Shown here one piece after another: positions 2,763-11,765 of a stretch of DNA of 64,000 nucleotides. The position numbers and the translations under genes were made by a program. Under the pieces are notes generated by a model. That model was not told the DNA's origin. It was given only the letters and a program-made list of their open reading frames with translations, and made no database searches. Origin of the DNA: Bacteroidia bacterium. Lineage in GTDB: Bacteria; Bacteroidota; Bacteroidia; UKL13-3. How positions within the stretch are numbered: the stretch's first letter is position 1; the number at the start of each line of letters is the position of its first letter. The stretch lies in assembly GCA_021740845.1 (NCBI GenBank), contig JAIOYZ010000002.1, positions 62,001 to 126,000 of the forward strand. Direction: 5' to 3'.

Positions 2763-3533
2763 ATGATTCGTTTTGATTATTTAGAGGCTAATAAGGAGAA
2801 GTTTAGAAAGCAATTTTTAGAGGCTAGGCCCTTTCCACATATTGGAATAAGTGATATTTGTGATAAAGAAAAATTGGAATTATTATATAGCCAAATTCCA
2901 GAAATTGATACACCTAGCGCAGATTACGTTTTTGCGAAAAACAAATTTGAAAAGAGCAAATACTATGAAATGGGTGGTTTGTTTTTAGAATTACATGAAG
3001 ATTTAATAAGTCCAAAATTTGCAGAATTGATAACTTATATTAGTAATGAAGATATTTTTATCGACCCAACTTTTTATGGCGGTGGCATCCACCAAGGTCG
3101 TAAAGGTAGTTTCTTAGATATGCATGCAGATTTTAATTACCACCCACTTCACGATAATTGGTATAGAAATTTAAATCTCCTTTTGTATATCAATAAGGAT
3201 TGGAAAAAAGAATATGGTGGCGAATTGAAACTAGAGGATGGAAGAACAGGAGAAAAAACAGAAGTTGATGTAAATTTTAATACACTTGCTATCATGCATT
3301 GTAGAAGTTATACTCTACATGGTTATGATCCAATTAATTTTCCAGAAAACCAATATAGAACATCAATTGCAGCCTACGCTTACACCATTCATCAAAATCA
3401 TATGGAATCAAGCAGGACCACTGTATGGCATGTGAAGAAGGAAAATCCCTTGAAATTTATGTTGTCTAAAATTTGGGTGCCAGCTGTTAAATTAAAAAGC
3501 ATGTTCTCAAAAAGTAAAACTGCCGATCATTAA
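2763..3533 (+). CDS. 2-oxoglutarate/Fe(II)-dependent oxygenase (prolyl-hydroxylase fold)
   Basis: The protein is 256 aa from ATG 2763. The frame is open from 2688, but those 25 extra residues are hydrophobic and do not resemble the family. The iron-binding facial triad is visible: HxD in DMHADFNYHP and a distal His in LHGYDPINFP, followed by Arg in QYRTSIAAYAYT that would bind the 2-oxoglutarate carboxylate. The region between, with NLLLYINKDW and YGGELKLED, is typical of the 2OG-FeII_Oxy_3 family, which hydroxylates proteins or small molecules. The substrate cannot be told from sequence. It is divergent from the TPR/LuxR regulator upstream; no operon partner follows. Confidence 0.82.
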   Translation: MIRFDYLEANKEKFRKQFLEARPFPHIGISDICDKEKLELLYSQIPEIDTPSADYVFAKNKFEKSKYYEMGGLFLELHEDLISPKFAELITYISNEDIFIDPTFYGGGIHQGRKGSFLDMHADFNYHPLHDNWYRNLNLLLYINKDWKKEYGGELKLEDGRTGEKTEVDVNFNTLAIMHCRSYTLHGYDPINFPENQYRTSIAAYAYTIHQNHMESSRTTVWHVKKENPLKFMLSKIWVPAVKLKSMFSKSKTADH

Positions 3534-3624: not shown

Positions 3625-6006
3625 ATGCATTCAAAGGTTATACTCTGCCTTTTTTTTATTATTTTATTAGGTTCAAACCAAAATTGCAAAGCCCAGCATG
3701 TGAGCATTAGCGGCTATGTAAAAGATAGTACTACAGGTGAAACATTAATAGGAGCATCTTTAAGAACCAAAGATGGAAACTCAGGAACCGTAACCAATGC
3801 CTATGGTTTTTTCACCCTTAATTTACCTAGTTCAGTTACAGAAATAATTTGCTCCTATGTTGGTTATCAACCTAAAATTATATCTATCGCAACAAATAAA
3901 AAACAGCAATACCAAATTTCACTTGCTCCTAGAAATAAACAGGAGAGGGAAGTTGTAATTACTGGTGAACGAAATAATAGAAATGTTCAGAGTACAGAAA
4001 TGAGCAGGATAGAATTAAGTGGAGAAAAAATAAAATCTCTACCTGTAATTTTTGGCGAACCAGATGTTTTAAAAGCCATAACATTACTTCCAGGAATTAA
4101 AAGTGGAGGTGAAGCAAGTACTGGATTTTATGTTCGTGGAGGTGGCCCAGATCAAAACCTAATATTAATGGACGAAGCTGTGGTTTATAATCCTTCTCAT
4201 TTGTTTGGTTTTTTGTCGGTTTTTAACTCTGATGCAGTAAAAAATATAGATATAATAAAAGGAGGAATGCCTGCAAATTATGGTGGAAGGTTGTCTTCTA
4301 TCCTAAATGTTAACATGCGGGAGGGAAACAATCAAAACTTTAAATACAGTGGTGGAATTGGTTTAATTTCTTCTCGTATTTCTGCTGAAGGACCAATAAA
4401 AAAAGGCAAAAGCAGTTTCTTGGTTGCTGCTAGAAGAACGTATATTGATGTTTTGGCGAGACCATTTTTACCTAACCAAATAAAAGGAAATAGCTATTAT
4501 TTTTACGACCTAAATCTTAAAATGAATTTTATTTTAAGTGATAAGGATAGGTTGTTCATTTCAGGCTATTTTGGTAGGGATATTTTAGATTATCAAAGTC
4601 AAATTAACGATGCCGTTAATTTTAATTTTGGTTGGGGAAACAGCACTGCAACTTTAAGATGGAACCATGTGTTTAATCCGAAGTTATTTGTAAATACCGC
4701 TGTTATTTTTAATAGATATGAGTTGTTTAATGATTTTCAATTCGGTTCGGGAGGATTTAATGTAAGAAGCAATTTATTGGACTGGAATTTAAAAAGCGAT
4801 TTCACTTGGTCTCCAATTGATAAACATCAAGTAAAGTTTGGGTTTAATTATACCTACCATACCTTTCAGCCCGGCATTCTTAGTGGAAATATAGGAAGCA
4901 CAGATATTTCTCAAACTATTAAAAAGCAATTTGCCCACGAGTATGCGACATATGTTTTGGACGAATGGAAAGTAAACCATCGCCTAACATTGAACTACGG
5001 TTTACGATTAGTTGCCTTTCAATTAGTAGGCCCATACACACAAAACGAATACGATCCAGATACACAATTACCTACAAGTAATTCAATCTCCTATGGTAAG
5101 GGAGAAACTATAGCATTTTATCCAAGAATTGAGCCTCGAATTAATAGCACGTATTTGCTAAGTGAAAACTCTAGCATCAAAGCTTCCTATACTCAAACCT
5201 ATCAATTCCTTCATTTGGCAACAACCTCTGGTGCTCAATTTCCAATTGATCTTTGGGTGCCAAGTAGCAAGTTGGTTCAACCTCAAATGGCAAGACAATA
5301 TGCACTTGGTTATTATAGAAATTTCAAAGACAATATGTATGAAACCTCCGCAGAAATTTATTATAAACCCATGCGAAACCAAATTGAATTTAAACCAGGC
5401 GCCAATTTGTTTTTTAATCAAAACTTAGAAAATGAAATGGTTTTTGGACAAGGTTTGAGTTATGGTTTGGAATTGTTTCTAAGGAAAAAGATTGGAAATT
5501 TTAATGGATGGATAGGGTATACATGGAGCAAAACAACAAGACAATTTGATGCACTAAATGATGGTAAACCTTACTTTTATAGATACGATAGAACACATGA
5601 TATTTCTGTTTTGTTATCCTATCAGTTTAATAAAAAATGGTCGGGTAACTTTGTCTTTGTTTATGGTACAGGCAATGCGACAACCCTTCCAGACTCAAGA
5701 TATGCTTATAGATTTGGTGTAGATCCAACAACTGGTGAGCCTAAGTTTATTTTTATAGATAAGTACTCAAAAGTAAATTCATTTAGAATGCCTGCTTACC
5801 ATAGAGCAGATATTTCTTTTACCTATTTACATAAACAAACAAAGAAATTTGAGAGTAGTTGGAATTTTAGTATTTACAATGTTTACAATAGAGCTAATCC
5901 CTACTTTATTTATTTTTATCCTGATATAAAAACCCAAACTGTTAAGGCTTATATGGTGTATTTATTTCCAATTGTTCCATCTGTTCAATGGAATTTTAAA
6001 TTTTAA
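3625..6006 (+). CDS. TonB-dependent outer membrane receptor with N-terminal CarboxypepD_reg-like domain
   Basis: The protein is 793 aa. It has a signal peptide (VILCLFFIILLG, cleavage near CKAQ), a carboxypeptidase-regulatory-like domain at about 26-110 (VSISGYVKDSTTGETLIGAS), a plug domain at about 120-230 (FYVRGGGPDQNLILMDEAVV, then VKNIDIIKGGMPANYGGRLS) and a 22-strand-type barrel to the C-terminus. Such receptors import a bound substrate into the periplasm using TonB-ExbBD energy. The next gene, 5 bp downstream, is a DUF4249 lipoprotein, and this pair recurs across Bacteroidota, so the two probably form one receptor/lipoprotein complex. The substrate is unknown; no sugar-utilisation genes or riboswitch are nearby. 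A small AGCCA/TGGCT hairpin (3601-3614) lies just before the ATG. Confidence 0.93.
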   Translation: MHSKVILCLFFIILLGSNQNCKAQHVSISGYVKDSTTGETLIGASLRTKDGNSGTVTNAYGFFTLNLPSSVTEIICSYVGYQPKIISIATNKKQQYQISLAPRNKQEREVVITGERNNRNVQSTEMSRIELSGEKIKSLPVIFGEPDVLKAITLLPGIKSGGEASTGFYVRGGGPDQNLILMDEAVVYNPSHLFGFLSVFNSDAVKNIDIIKGGMPANYGGRLSSILNVNMREGNNQNFKYSGGIGLISSRISAEGPIKKGKSSFLVAARRTYIDVLARPFLPNQIKGNSYYFYDLNLKMNFILSDKDRLFISGYFGRDILDYQSQINDAVNFNFGWGNSTATLRWNHVFNPKLFVNTAVIFNRYELFNDFQFGSGGFNVRSNLLDWNLKSDFTWSPIDKHQVKFGFNYTYHTFQPGILSGNIGSTDISQTIKKQFAHEYATYVLDEWKVNHRLTLNYGLRLVAFQLVGPYTQNEYDPDTQLPTSNSISYGKGETIAFYPRIEPRINSTYLLSENSSIKASYTQTYQFLHLATTSGAQFPIDLWVPSSKLVQPQMARQYALGYYRNFKDNMYETSAEIYYKPMRNQIEFKPGANLFFNQNLENEMVFGQGLSYGLELFLRKKIGNFNGWIGYTWSKTTRQFDALNDGKPYFYRYDRTHDISVLLSYQFNKKWSGNFVFVYGTGNATTLPDSRYAYRFGVDPTTGEPKFIFIDKYSKVNSFRMPAYHRADISFTYLHKQTKKFESSWNFSIYNVYNRANPYFIYFYPDIKTQTVKAYMVYLFPIVPSVQWNFKF
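3670..3679 (+). repeat. Dispersed motif GGTTCAAACC, exact copy 2
   Basis: It lies inside the signal-peptide region of the TonB receptor gene, read in frame as Gly-Ser-Asn. Confidence 0.85.
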
Positions 6007-7458: not shown

Positions 7459-8988
7459 TTATTTTACAAAATCTTCAAATTGAACTTTAAATTCAACTCT
7501 TCTGTTTTTTGCTTTTCCATCTGTAGTTTTATTATCAGCAACCGGAGCGGTATCACCATATCCTTCAGAAGCCATTCTACTATCCTCAACTCCTTTAGAA
7601 ATTAAATACTTTCTCACCGCAGCAGCGCGGTCTTTTGATAATTGTAAGTTTTTATCTGCATTACCAACATTGTCTGTATGTCCACCAATAAATAATCTAT
7701 AGGTTGGATTTTCAATCATAGCTTTTGCCACACCATCCAAAATAGGGAAGGATTGTTTTTTAATTGTTGATTTTCCAGTTTCAAACTGAACGCCTTGTAA
7801 AGCACGCTCAAATAATTTTTTAACATTTTGTTTTACTTCAGGGCAACCTTTGTTTTCTGCAATCCCAGCAATAGCAGGACACTTATCTAAATTGTCAGGA
7901 ATGCCATCCCCGTCAGTATCTGGGCAACCATCATATTGTGCAATACCTTTTAATTTAGGACATTTATCATTTGCATCTTCAATTCCGTCTCCGTCGGTAT
8001 CAGGGCAACCGTTAAATTGCGTAATACCTGCAACACTTGGGCATTTATCCAAAGCATCTTCAATACCATCACCATCAGTATCTGGGCAACCTTCAAATTT
8101 GGCAATTCCCTTAACGGTTGGGCATTTATCTTTACTATCTTCAATACCATCGCTGTCAGTATCTGGGCAACCATTAAATTGAGCAATACCAGCAATATTT
8201 GGACAAGCATCTTGGTTATCTGCAATTCCATCTTTATCGGCATCAATAATACAACCTTCCTTGTCAACTAGGGCTCCTGATGCAGTTCCTGGGCATTTAT
8301 CGCGCTTATCACCAACTTTATCTCCATCGGCATCTTTCATTTTGCCTAATAAGAATGAAATTCCAATTGAATGGTGCCACAATTGGTCGTAGGAAAGTTT
8401 GGTGTATTTAGCTTTTCCTTCAATTTTATCTCCACTTGTCCAACCATAATGAGATTGAATATTTAAATAAACGCGTTCTTCTAATTTTATATTTACGCCT
8501 ACACCTAATGGAATTACCAAATCGCTAACACCTTTTTTGCCAAAATCGTTACCACTTGGTAAATCGGCATATCTATACCCCAAACCGCTTAAGAAATACG
8601 GGGTTAACCTAGCATAATCCTTGCCCAAAAATTTCCAACGAGCCGTTGCATCTAAATAAGCAAAGTTGGAATAGAAATAATGATCAATGTTTCTGAAAAT
8701 ACCAGTTTCTCCATAAGAGGCGGCAAAGTTAAAGTCGAAACGACGATTATAATATCTAGTTGCATTTAATCCAATATAACCGGGTCTATTTTCCTTAATG
8801 CCAATGCCATTATCTTTATAAATTCGATTAGACAATAAATCAAATTTAAAAAATCCGTTTCCCATGTCTCCATAGTATTCGGAAAATCCAACATTCAAAC
8901 CTAAAGCCCATTTGTAATCTGGAGTTTGAGATTTGGTGGTTTGTAGGAAACAAGTCAAAACCAAAAAGCTAAGTAATAATTTTCTCAT
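7459..8988 (-). CDS. OmpA-family outer membrane protein with thrombospondin type 3 repeats
   Basis: The protein is 509 aa. It has a signal peptide (MRKLLLSFLVLTCFLQTTKS), an N-terminal beta-barrel of about 200 residues (YKWALGLNVGFSEYYGDMGN at its start), then about six calcium-binding TSP3 repeats of the DTDGDGIEDxxDKCP type (residues about 217-385). The C-terminal OmpA/MotB peptidoglycan-binding domain carries GGHTDNVGNADKNLQLSKDR and AKNRRVEFKV. It links the outer membrane to the cell wall. The repeats are near-identical at the DNA level and produce long antisense open frames that are not genes. It is probably monocistronic and ends at a strong hairpin. Confidence 0.95.
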   Translation of the reverse strand: MRKLLLSFLVLTCFLQTTKSQTPDYKWALGLNVGFSEYYGDMGNGFFKFDLLSNRIYKDNGIGIKENRPGYIGLNATRYYNRRFDFNFAASYGETGIFRNIDHYFYSNFAYLDATARWKFLGKDYARLTPYFLSGLGYRYADLPSGNDFGKKGVSDLVIPLGVGVNIKLEERVYLNIQSHYGWTSGDKIEGKAKYTKLSYDQLWHHSIGISFLLGKMKDADGDKVGDKRDKCPGTASGALVDKEGCIIDADKDGIADNQDACPNIAGIAQFNGCPDTDSDGIEDSKDKCPTVKGIAKFEGCPDTDGDGIEDALDKCPSVAGITQFNGCPDTDGDGIEDANDKCPKLKGIAQYDGCPDTDGDGIPDNLDKCPAIAGIAENKGCPEVKQNVKKLFERALQGVQFETGKSTIKKQSFPILDGVAKAMIENPTYRLFIGGHTDNVGNADKNLQLSKDRAAAVRKYLISKGVEDSRMASEGYGDTAPVADNKTTDGKAKNRRVEFKVQFEDFVK

Positions 8989-9131
8989 AGAAGTTTTAAT
9001 TTACATTGGTGCCAAGATAATAAATTTCAATAAATCGTAAATGCTTTGTTAAATTATTCTCGCCTAACTTATTATTATGTGTATATTTTTTTAGATTTTG
9101 GTTATGTTTGATTTTCAATTTAAGGAGTAAA

Positions 9132-9893
9132 GTGATTCGTATTTTTATAATAGGCGGAGGACGGTTAGCAGAAAATCTGGTAGAGGCATTTAAGAATACT
9201 GATAGTGTTATTTCTGGTATTTATGCAAGGTCTCCTGATCAATTAAAAAAAATTGTTCAAGAAAATAATATTGCTGGATTTAACGATTTAGAATCTATAC
9301 CTACTGATTGTGATGTTTATTTTATTGCTGTTTCTGATAAGTCAATCGAATTAGTTTCAAAACAAATTAATCCAAATGGATTAGTGGTACATTGCTCTGG
9401 TGTTTTGCCAATTGGGGCACTAAATAAGCATTTGAACGTGGGTGTTTTTTGGCCAATTCAAACTTTAAGTTTAAATAAAAAAATAGACTTCCAGAATGTA
9501 CCAATTTGTATTGAATCCAACTCTGAAAATAATCGAAAATTATTAGTGAAACTAGCCTCGAAAATTTCCAGCAAATCGGTGGTTGTAAATTCTGAAGAGA
9601 GAAGAAAATTACACCTTTCCGCGGTTTTGGTAAATAATTTTTCGAATCATTTATACGTTTTAGCAAAACAATATTTAGAAGAAAACGAGTTGTCATTTGA
9701 TTTATTAAAACCATTGATCCTTCAAACCACAGAAAATGCTTTGGAGAAAGATCCAACATTGGTTCAAACCGGACCAGCAAGTAGAAAAGATTTTGGAACC
9801 ATTACCAACCACGAAACCTTATTAATAGACCATCCCGAACTTTTAAATATTTATAAATCCTTAACTCAAAGCATACTTCATCAATCCAATTAA
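9132..9893 (+). CDS. Rossmann-fold/DUF2520 protein
   Basis: The protein is about 253 aa. The N-terminus is a dinucleotide-binding motif, IRIFIIGGGRLAENLVEAF, followed by DVYFIAVSDKSIELV and VVHCSGVLPIGAL. The helical C-terminal half matches DUF2520 (VFWPIQTLS, RKLHLSAVLVNNFSNHLY, TGPASRKDFGTITNH). The architecture resembles 6-phosphogluconate-dehydrogenase-like or ketopantoate-reductase-like oxidoreductases; the substrate is unknown. I place the start at GTG 9132 because AAGGAG lies just upstream (9122-9127) and the Rossmann strand begins right after; TTG 9108 is the alternative. The next gene starts 8 bp downstream. Confidence 0.83.
   Translation: MIRIFIIGGGRLAENLVEAFKNTDSVISGIYARSPDQLKKIVQENNIAGFNDLESIPTDCDVYFIAVSDKSIELVSKQINPNGLVVHCSGVLPIGALNKHLNVGVFWPIQTLSLNKKIDFQNVPICIESNSENNRKLLVKLASKISSKSVVVNSEERRKLHLSAVLVNNFSNHLYVLAKQYLEENELSFDLLKPLILQTTENALEKDPTLVQTGPASRKDFGTITNHETLLIDHPELLNIYKSLTQSILHQSN
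9761..9770 (+). repeat. Dispersed motif GGTTCAAACC, exact copy 4
   Basis: It is near the 3' end of the DUF2520 gene, read in frame as Val-Gln-Thr, followed by GGA. Confidence 0.85.
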
Positions 9894-9901
9894 TATACTT
9901 T

Positions 9902-11161
9902 ATGAAAAGGTACCTAATTATTTTATTTCTCGTGTTAAGTTATATAAGTGGACAATGCTCTCGAATATTAATTCCTATGGACGAGGAGCAAAAAAACCAC
10001 CTAAAAGCTTATGGGATTTCTTTTTTAGTTTTGAAAAAAGACAAAGAGGTAAATTGGTTATTAAACTATCGAGGTGGTAGTTTTATGATGATGTATGAAG
10101 AATCGATAGAAAAAGAATGTAAGATTAGAGGGGTAAGCTATGAGTTAATAAGTGAGGGTCAGGTTACAGAAATATTGATGGAAATAGCCAAGCCAGATAT
10201 TAATATGGAGTTGGTTAAATTACTTAAAGCACCAAAAATTGCAGTGTATTCACCTAAAACTAAACAACCATGGGATGATGCGGTAACTTTGGTTCTTACC
10301 TATGCAGAAATTCCATATGATATTGTTTATGACGATGAGGTTTTGGATGGAAAATTAGTTTTATACGATTGGTTACATGTTCACCATGAAGATTTTACTG
10401 GGCAGTTTGGGAAATTTTACGCATCCTTTGCCAATGCTGCTTGGTACCAAGCCGATGTAAAAGAAAATGAGGCAATGGCTGCCAAACATGGATTTAGCAA
10501 GGTTTCTGATTTGAAACTAACGGTTGCAAAAAAAATTAGAGATTTTGTAGTTGGTGGTGGATTTATGTTTGCCATGTGCAGTGCTACAGATACTTATGAT
10601 ATTGCATTAGCTGCTGATGGAATTGATATTGTTGAACAAGTTTTTGATGGTGACCCAGCAGATTGGGGTGCCGATAAAAAATTGAATTTTGGAAATGGGT
10701 TTGCCTTTAAAGATTACAAACTTTATTATGATCCTATGATTTACGAGCATAGTTATATTGATGCTATGCAAGGAACAAGGCCCGTAGCAGAGGAGAATGA
10801 CGTTTTTTCATTATTTGAATTCAGTGCTAAATGGGATATGGTTCCAGCTATGTTAAACCAGAATCATACAAATACGGTAAAGGGTTTTTGGGGTCAAACC
10901 ACCGCATTTAGAAAGCCATTTATAAAGAGTGATGTAATAATTTTAGGAGATAACAAGTCTCTAAATGAGGCAAGGTATATCCATGGAACTTCAGGAAAAG
11001 GCACTTGGACTTTTTATGGAGGTCATGATCCAGAAGATTATCAGCACCAAGTGGGTGAGCCACCAACAGATTTAAACCTTCATCCCAATTCACCTGGCTA
11101 TCGCCTTATTCTAAATAATGTTTTGTTTCCTTCTGCTCAAAAGAAAAAGCAAAAGACATGA
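9902..11161 (+). CDS. Secreted protein of the Bacteroidota family often labelled asparagine synthetase B
   Basis: The protein is 419 aa with a signal peptide (YLIILFLVLSYISG). The opening SRILIPMDEEQKNHLKAYGI matches, from memory, a Bacteroidota family that databases call asparagine synthetase B. I see neither the N-terminal Cys of a class II glutaminase nor an SGGxDS ATP-pyrophosphatase loop, and the export signal argues against that enzyme. The stretch VGGGFMFAMCSATDTYDIAL, with a Cys after a short strand, and the later HGTSGKGTWTFYGGHDPEDY look more like a class I amidotransferase/ThuA-like fold. True function unknown; probably periplasmic or surface. It starts 8 bp after the DUF2520 gene. 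Confidence 0.75.
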   Translation: MKRYLIILFLVLSYISGQCSRILIPMDEEQKNHLKAYGISFLVLKKDKEVNWLLNYRGGSFMMMYEESIEKECKIRGVSYELISEGQVTEILMEIAKPDINMELVKLLKAPKIAVYSPKTKQPWDDAVTLVLTYAEIPYDIVYDDEVLDGKLVLYDWLHVHHEDFTGQFGKFYASFANAAWYQADVKENEAMAAKHGFSKVSDLKLTVAKKIRDFVVGGGFMFAMCSATDTYDIALAADGIDIVEQVFDGDPADWGADKKLNFGNGFAFKDYKLYYDPMIYEHSYIDAMQGTRPVAEENDVFSLFEFSAKWDMVPAMLNQNHTNTVKGFWGQTTAFRKPFIKSDVIILGDNKSLNEARYIHGTSGKGTWTFYGGHDPEDYQHQVGEPPTDLNLHPNSPGYRLILNNVLFPSAQKKKQKT

Positions 11162-11522: not shown

Positions 11523-11765
11523 ATGAAAAATTCAAACCCTAATGCAAGTGGAATCCTATTTACCTTAGCTTTTTTTGGGCTATTCTTCGTTGCTATGATT
11601 GTAGTTTTGGCAGGAGATGTAGAAATCAGTTCAATTTTTGAAGACAAAGTAAACAGTGCCATAAACACAGAGGTGCAATCAAGAATTAGTTCGGTAGGAA
11701 CAAGCGCAGCAAAAACTGGGAGTATTAATAACTCTTTATTTTATGAATTAACAGGAGATAAATAG
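11523..11765 (+). CDS. Small single-pass membrane protein of unknown function
   Basis: The protein is 80 aa. A short polar N-terminus (MKNSNPNASG) is followed by one hydrophobic helix (ILFTLAFFGLFFVAMIVVLAG) and a polar tail of about 45 residues rich in Ser, Ala, Asn and Glu. No domain is recognised. It is monocistronic: a promoter-like element lies upstream and a hairpin terminator follows 42 bp after the stop. The isolated transcription unit supports it as a real gene. Confidence 0.65.
   Translation: MKNSNPNASGILFTLAFFGLFFVAMIVVLAGDVEISSIFEDKVNSAINTEVQSRISSVGTSAAKTGSINNSLFYELTGDK

Follow-up and report, generated by a model that had tools for sequence, protein, structure and literature searches.

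The window analysed here is a stretch of 64,000 nucleotides from a Bacteroidia bacterium. Positions 9902..11161 hold a gene for a putatively exported GATase1/ThuA-like protein of 419 amino acids, delimited by its ATG start, the open reading frame and phylum-wide relatives. Like every feature of the gene given below, it lies on the plus strand. The source genome contained one copy. By eye, the N-terminus MKRYLIILFLVLSYISGQC appears to be a Sec signal peptide of approximately residues 1-18 (9902..9955). Conservation was assessed in an alignment of 154 sequences that were 52-84% identical to the query and comprised the window copy, 109 first loci, 40 sequences from further genomes (38 of other classes) and four second copies. 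Cys19 follows the putative cleavage site. Of 154 relatives, 116 carry Ala at the aligned position and one carries Cys, suggesting a signal peptide of the signal-peptidase-I type with no lipobox. The earlier note had called the protein secreted, and the signal peptide agrees with this. The protein is most likely exported, with cleavage of the signal peptide and a periplasmic location as the presumed outcome. A gene for a DUF2520/Rossmann protein (9108-9893) ended 8 bases before the gene. It was found nearby in 7 of 81 loci, so this arrangement is local. Positions 11523-11765 held an 80-aa ORF with one hydrophobic stretch, which matched no Pfam family at E ≤ 1 and was absent from the neighbour clusters among those listed.

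Searches with Pfam, NCBIfam, PDB and profiles gave zero sequence-level links to characterised enzymes. No family was matched at E ≤ 1 in Pfam or NCBIfam and no PDB chain at E ≤ 5. A 73-row profile returned just two weak rows from the PDB at E ≤ 10, both other molecules, and PHROGs gave a single row with an E-value of 0.1. With zero sequence relatives in Pfam, NCBIfam and the PDB, the family is without an assigned function. No publication on it was found by name among the best-ranked titles of an open library, and the motif HHEDFTG was absent from the open-library literature searched.

The earlier note had suspected that the protein is misnamed asparagine synthetase B in databases and had stated that it cannot make asparagine. 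The latter reading was borne out. Neither an Asn_synthase nor a class II GATase domain was detected with Pfam or NCBIfam, and the predicted fold is another one. No Asn synthase profile matched the protein or appeared among the families of 73 members. The SGGxDS loop was absent by eye, and the place of the N-terminal class II glutaminase Cys2 was taken by a Lys inside the signal peptide. A separate protein with the Pfam domain Asn_synthase (PF00733) was encoded on another contig of the source genome (G000:C50:63870-64892; 258.9 bits, 590-aa frame). The empty domain searches and this separate gene argue that the 419-aa protein is not an asparagine synthetase, and the identification as AsnB was rejected. 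That it is a true asparagine synthetase after all is virtually inconceivable, since the name given by the earlier note is the sole support and the domain content, signal peptide, different fold and real PF00733 gene elsewhere all speak against it.

The distribution of the gene was determined in an evenly drawn sample of 395 Bacteroidota genomes; these genomes are related and were counted without a tree, and the counts are not independent events. Relatives were present in 275 of the 395 genomes, 272 of 371 good genomes and 147 of 171 genera, mostly with one copy per genome, in line with the earlier description of a widespread family. Among the full-length matches listed, identity to the window's copy was mostly about 54-65% across classes. 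From named genome contigs, the best 80 of 592 relatives were kept, and the titles listed were Bacteroidota or unnamed bacteria with one exception labelled Rickettsiales. This 62% identical member (L106) lay on a contig of Rickettsiales bacterium NP5 that is probably a misbinned Bacteroidota contig. Plasmid and phage records contained zero relatives. One of 17 candidate stretches on viral contigs encoded a partial relative, an IMG/VR contig (L248:1234-1677) with residues 1-148 at 56% identity, which is probably host DNA.

A structure model was calculated with AlphaFold2 on the 73-row alignment and reached a pLDDT of 91.4 and a pTM of 0.89. It was compared with the PDB using Foldseek and VIA-align, with rows within 1 Z regarded as tied. 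Two domains were predicted. The N-terminal domain, residues 19-108 (9956..10225), had a ferredoxin-like alpha/beta fold in a separate prediction, with a pLDDT of 94.1 when residues 18-111 were modelled alone. Its best PDB match was the UreE C-terminal domain with Z 7.4 over 69 residues and an rmsd of 2.5, below the mark of Z 8 in the note of the fold-comparison tool, and no confident match identified this domain. Residues 109-415 (10226..11146) were assigned by both tools to the class I glutamine-amidotransferase-like superfamily, as the earlier note had proposed with its class I amidotransferase/ThuA-like elbow. The modelled domain is a member of the class I GATase-like fold with its flavodoxin-like sandwich. 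The matches listed, including ThuA-like, GATase and MetA chains, had Z 10.6-13.2 over approximately 175-235 residues. The highest was 5xb7 (Z 13.2, 183 residues, rmsd 2.9), and others included ThuA-like 1t0b (Z 12.6, 196 residues, rmsd 3.4), 8aa2 chain G of the levan utilisome (Foldseek E 1.4e-5; Z 12.2, 212 residues, rmsd 3.6), ThuA-like 4pxy (Z 12.0, 207 residues, rmsd 3.7), MetA 2ghr (Z 11.8, 224 residues, rmsd 4.5), 7cbe (Z 11.6), Pdx2 2iss (Z 11.5, 177 residues, rmsd 3.2) and 7vkw (Z 11.1).

Sixty-six of 419 positions were invariant across the 154 sequences, and some of them lay in loops at strand ends. The elbow GGGFMFAMCSATDTYD (residues 218-233; 10553..10600) comprised strand 221-225, Cys226 and helix 228-237 in the model. 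Cys226 (10577..10579) was conserved in 154 of 154 sequences, including the four second copies; this outcome favours the Cys nucleophile proposed by the earlier note, against which a variable Cys would have spoken. The query has three Cys residues and C226 was the only invariant one; C73 was Cys in 110 of 154 sequences. A second conserved motif, HDPED (residues 375-379; 11024..11038), followed the last strand 367-372 ahead of the terminal helix 398-411 and holds the candidate catalytic His and acid. H375, D376 and P377 were found in 154 of 154 sequences, E378 in 153 with Ala in one sequence (L202), and D379 in 150 with Gly in the four second copies. The third motif, HxHHEDFTG (residues 159-167; 10376..10402), formed an invariant loop following strand 157-161, and H159, H161, H162, E163, D164, F165, T166 and G167 each occurred in 154 of 154 sequences. 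H322 was invariant as well. The second copies (L155, L156, L157 and L158), present in some genomes and 50-54% identical, kept the key residues but had Gly in place of Asp379 and of His382, except that L155 had Arg at position 382.

A Cys at the elbow between strand and helix is the classical nucleophile position of the class I GATase fold. Known class I GATases and the homoserine O-succinyltransferase MetA have this elbow Cys and a His followed by an acid after the last sheet strand. We take the Cys and His-x-Glu of GATase1 enzymes to occupy the places of Cys226 and HDPED. The spacing is His-Pro-Glu in known GATases and His-Asp-Pro-Glu in the 419-aa family. By topology and conservation, Cys226 is a candidate nucleophile. 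Class I GATases (Pdx2/YaaE, GMP synthase and anthranilate synthase subunits) and MetA share the predicted fold (2iss, 2ghr, 7cbe), whereas the 419-aa family is putatively exported and has no synthetase partner domain and no sequence match to them. GH42 enzymes with their GATase-like domain and a 1,2-beta-glucosyltransferase (5xb7, 7vkw) share the fold of one domain. GATase-like domains of this type are part of TIM-barrel enzymes and are not known to have the Cys nucleophile; the 419-aa protein has no barrel.

ThuA-like proteins (PF06283; 1t0b, 4pxy, 4jqs, 4e5v) had the same predicted fold over residues 109-415 with Z 11.1-12.6. Membership of ThuA proper was not supported by sequence: PF06283 was neither matched in Pfam at E ≤ 1 nor among the 21 families matched by any of 73 members. 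Alignment of the family profile with ThuA in hhalign gave a score of 21.6 and a probability of 1.3 with a shallow profile (Neff 2.1). The best of 30 column shuffles reached 21.97 and the reversed control 17.3, so the ThuA score was within the shuffle range. In the single hhalign alignment, with its non-significant score, Cys226 was paired with the His of the ThuA elbow. For this test and for comparison by eye, 30 ThuA domains that passed the Pfam cut-off were used, from 5 of 5 loci of one set and 25 of 30 of another, the other five being weak or partial. By eye, their GGG...(A)TDT elbow and GH...E motif after the last strand were similar to those of the 419-aa family. Most of the 30 domains, in contrast, had His at the place of Cys226, and three features set the family apart from ThuA: an additional N-terminal domain, the loop HxHHEDFTG and the tail ending in KT.

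The match to 8aa2 chain G may point to a different function for the domain. This chain is BT1761, also an exported Bacteroidota protein, whose C-terminal domain is described as levan-binding and ThuA-like in the part of the source consulted (PMC7618045). The 419-aa protein could accordingly carry a ThuA-like domain without being an enzyme and serve in binding or as a scaffold, and the rank of 8aa2 chain G among the best fold matches is consistent with this. BT1761 is, however, lipidated and binds glycan as the product of a single utilisation locus, whereas the 419-aa family has no lipobox, carries an invariant Cys/His set and is distributed phylum-wide, mostly in one copy, unlike proteins of a single sugar-utilisation locus. 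Invariant sets of Cys, His and Asp in loops would also be unusual for a glycan-binding domain, and we regard a scaffold role as improbable.

The conserved residues would also fit a metal-dependent enzyme or metal-handling protein, in which the HxHHED loop, His322 and perhaps Cys226 and His375 bind a transition metal and the Cys serves as a ligand. Three His, a Glu and an Asp in one invariant loop, together with invariant His322, His375 and Cys226, are consistent with such a site, and the weak N-terminal matches were C-terminal domains of UreE metallochaperones. These matches stayed under the Z 8 mark, however, and the strand-helix elbow is the classical place of a nucleophile. In the portion of the study covered, an iron-regulator mutant of Bizionia showed 'an asparagine synthetase B' among the lowered genes (PMC9478572), which would also be in line with metal handling. 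As no locus tag accompanies the gene in that portion, it is not assignable to the 419-aa family and may be a true AsnB; this mention was the sole sign of the suspected misnaming in the literature searched. On balance, metal binding is a rather unlikely explanation, and the Cys/His enzyme remains the preferred reading.

The protein ends in the tail KKKQKT (residues 414-419; 11141..11158), which is flexible in the model, with pLDDT < 50 for residues 417-419. The last residue, T419, was invariant in 154 sequences, and all 110 proteins read to the stop codon (the window and 109 loci) ended exactly in KT, mostly with the pattern K-x3-K-T-COOH. Three genomes (G504, G442 and G294) carried a second copy of the gene's 3' end at a distance of 0.97 to 7.2 kb. 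The copies (L203:1485-1578 and 8642-8735; L204:1531-1599 and 3342-3410; L205:2879-2948 and 3853-3922) were 69-94 bp long and 86-98% identical, and the G+C content of the DNA between them was lower than in the gene in both cases measured. These arrangements look like insertions that regenerate the conserved 3' terminus of the gene. Inspection by eye of the ORFs listed for L203 showed no evident integrase.

Gene neighbourhoods revealed a potential partner. Around the gene in the window and in 80 named loci, neighbours formed lineage-limited clusters, the largest present in 30 of 81 loci; names assigned by eye were porin-like, LpxK-like, PNP-like and DnaB-like. Forty further loci were then considered, 38 labelled 'same phylum' from other classes and two labelled 'same class'. 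Locus L225 was left out as it had no anchor, leaving 37 other-class loci. In 22 of the 37, a gene for the same exported TPR protein preceded the 419-aa protein gene on its strand at a distance of no more than three ORFs. It was the immediate neighbour in 15 loci, lay one ORF further away in six and two ORFs further away in one. In L225 (genome G004), the coordinates placed a TPR match 30 bases before the match to the 419-aa protein gene. The upstream TPR gene was present in 0 of 2 same-class loci and in 0 of 81 of the named loci and the window. As read, the TPR proteins near the gene comprised 604-672 aa with a mean pairwise identity of 23%. Forty-one of 41 aligned TPR proteins shared a Gln at a single position close to where the signal peptide is predicted to end, which fits the Bacteroidetes Q-rule as given in the part of the source seen (PMC5837995).

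The search profile combined 14 TPR proteins picked for lying near the gene, and their genomes therefore match by construction. In a check of 31 genomes, all 21 gene-bearing genomes had a near full-length TPR match with at least 231 bits, which was split into two pieces in G186 and G049. The 10 gene-less genomes showed a partial match of 48.4 bits at most. The cut-off of E ≤ 1e-25 was set after this gap between 48 and 231 bits had been seen, and the 31 genomes also belong to the sample of 395. In the search of all 395 genomes, three candidates were scored per genome and genomes outside the matches listed counted as negatives. The TPR protein was detected in 271 genomes, corresponding to 271 of 275 gene-bearing and 0 of 120 gene-less genomes. 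Both genes were present in 271 genomes, neither in 120, the 419-aa protein gene only in four (G180, G212, G271 and G306) and the TPR gene only in none. The overlap was computed from re-entered genome lists, which reproduced the totals of 275 and 271. The weakest positives were four genomes of family f14 (G001, G006, G011 and G016; E 1.6e-29 to 4.0e-43) and G247 (9.4e-47). Joint absence of both genes occurred within families f2, f3, f5, f9 and f25 and within genus g88, in which G081, G151, G250, G274, G348 and G364 had both genes and G227 and G286 neither. This makes a single event unlikely.

The TPR gene of the source genome was located on another contig (G000:C38:35334-37163) than the 419-aa protein gene, and a small ORF 3 bases after it is presumably DUF4286-like. 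Twenty loci around the TPR gene were fetched and 19 analysed. The TPR gene was followed by an ORF of about 100 aa of the DUF4286-like kind in five of 19 and by the 419-aa protein gene in six of 19. An example of the former is L279:7810-8118; in two of these five loci, a gene that is KsgA-like by eye lay alongside. When seven TPR partners were scanned against NCBIfam, two passed the cut-off for tol-pal YbgF, which is a different TPR protein, and one just reached the BamD cut-off. Identity as PorW/SprE was rejected for these seven with at most 39 of the 250 bits of the cut-off. The observed co-occurrence makes the exported TPR protein a near-perfect genomic partner of the 419-aa protein gene. 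Points against reading the two as one unit are the four gene-bearing genomes with no TPR match at E ≤ 1e-25, the weak matches of the four f14 genomes, the adjacency of 0 of 81 in the named loci and the window, and the fact that TPR repeats are common, as the two partners over the tol-pal YbgF cut-off show.

The presence of the gene was also compared with SprA, a marker of the type IX secretion system (T9SS), using re-entered lists for the window's class, a check of the 29 gene-less SprA genomes, and totals. Of the 395 genomes, 304 had SprA; it scored above the cut-off in 303 and only below it in G269, one of the gene-less SprA genomes. It was present in 275 of 275 gene-bearing genomes, and the gene occurred in 0 of 91 SprA-less genomes. 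Twenty-nine of 304 SprA genomes were without the gene, an absence upheld by profile search. A second sample covered 121 genomes of family f2, with G002 and G359 in both samples and lists compared by reading. The gene was present in 84 and SprA in 111 of these genomes. SprA accompanied the gene in 84 of 84 cases, and the gene was absent from 10 of 10 SprA-less and from 27 of 111 SprA-bearing genomes. The 419-aa protein might thus be an accessory component of the T9SS, as the gene was confined to SprA genomes in both samples. Against this, the gene-less SprA genomes (29 of 304 and 27 of 111) indicate that the T9SS seems to run without the protein. Furthermore, the SprA-less genomes of the first sample belonged to few genera (5 of 171), and in two of the three SprA-less genera of family f2 (g2 and g194) the gene was absent from SprA-bearing members too. 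Zero T9SS genes were recognised by eye in the neighbour clusters listed, and the upstream TPR protein was not PorW/SprE by the cut-off. The TPR partner was also missing from the 29 gene-less SprA genomes and fits the pattern of the gene better than SprA, with a phi for co-occurrence of 0.98 compared to 0.83 in the 395 genomes. Presence of the gene implies SprA, but its losses do not cleanly follow SprA losses. We keep the T9SS as a rival explanation, consider an accessory role unlikely, and conclude that the SprA pattern is compatible with a T9SS setting without demonstrating one.

Further links to secretion and gliding were sought. NCBIfam holds models of the C-terminal T9SS signal, and no match of any kind to such a cargo signal was obtained at E ≤ 1. 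The gliding protein GldB was present in 26 of 29 SprA-bearing gene-less and in 19 of 30 chosen gene-bearing genomes and showed no link. The T9SS Plug (PG2092) has 419 aa and is missing in Bacteroides according to the section consulted (PMC1887533). The Plug is described as part of the solved SprA complex (PMC9143113) and is presumably among the PDB chains. Identity with Plug/PG2092 was rejected, as no PDB chain matched the 419-aa protein by sequence at E ≤ 5 and the profile search returned two weak rows of other molecules at E ≤ 10. Heath et al. (2016) listed T9SS-correlated genes of P. gingivalis, and the portion of the table considered contained no entry recognisable as the 419-aa family (PMC5053529).

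We consider it probable that the 419-aa protein is a periplasmic Cys/His enzyme of class I GATase/ThuA-like fold that forms one unit with the TPR protein, with docking of the tail as a proposal. The protein would be exported by Sec, most likely to the periplasm. Cys226 at the elbow may be assisted by His375 and by either Asp376 or Glu378 as the acid, and the invariant HxHHED loop and His322 would line the pocket around this candidate triad. The likely chemistry would be hydrolysis or transfer via an acyl-enzyme, of the amidase, thioesterase or acyltransferase type, on a candidate envelope or exported substrate. The 419-aa protein and the large exported TPR protein would act together, with the flexible invariant C-terminal tail docking into the TPR superhelix. 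TPR domains elsewhere bind free C-termini, as in Hop/EEVD and PEX5/PTS1, and an invariant, flexible and exactly ended tail next to a TPR partner suggests, by analogy, docking of a free C-terminus here. More tentatively, the pair can be pictured as a hitherto undescribed two-protein periplasmic machine in which the Cys enzyme is delivered to or held by a dedicated TPR receptor that reads the Lys-Thr tail. Such a machine would already have been present in the ancestor of Bacteroidota, and both genes would have been lost together several times.

If asparagine synthetase B is indeed in use for the family, a misleading name would be corrected. The family has remained an orphan although it is kept at about 54-65% identity across classes among the matches listed and has 66 invariant positions. 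The co-occurrence with the TPR protein is the first clue to the function of this unnamed family. If it holds, the orphan becomes part of a module of two genes that is open to genetic testing, with a candidate nucleophile and a putative docking tail.
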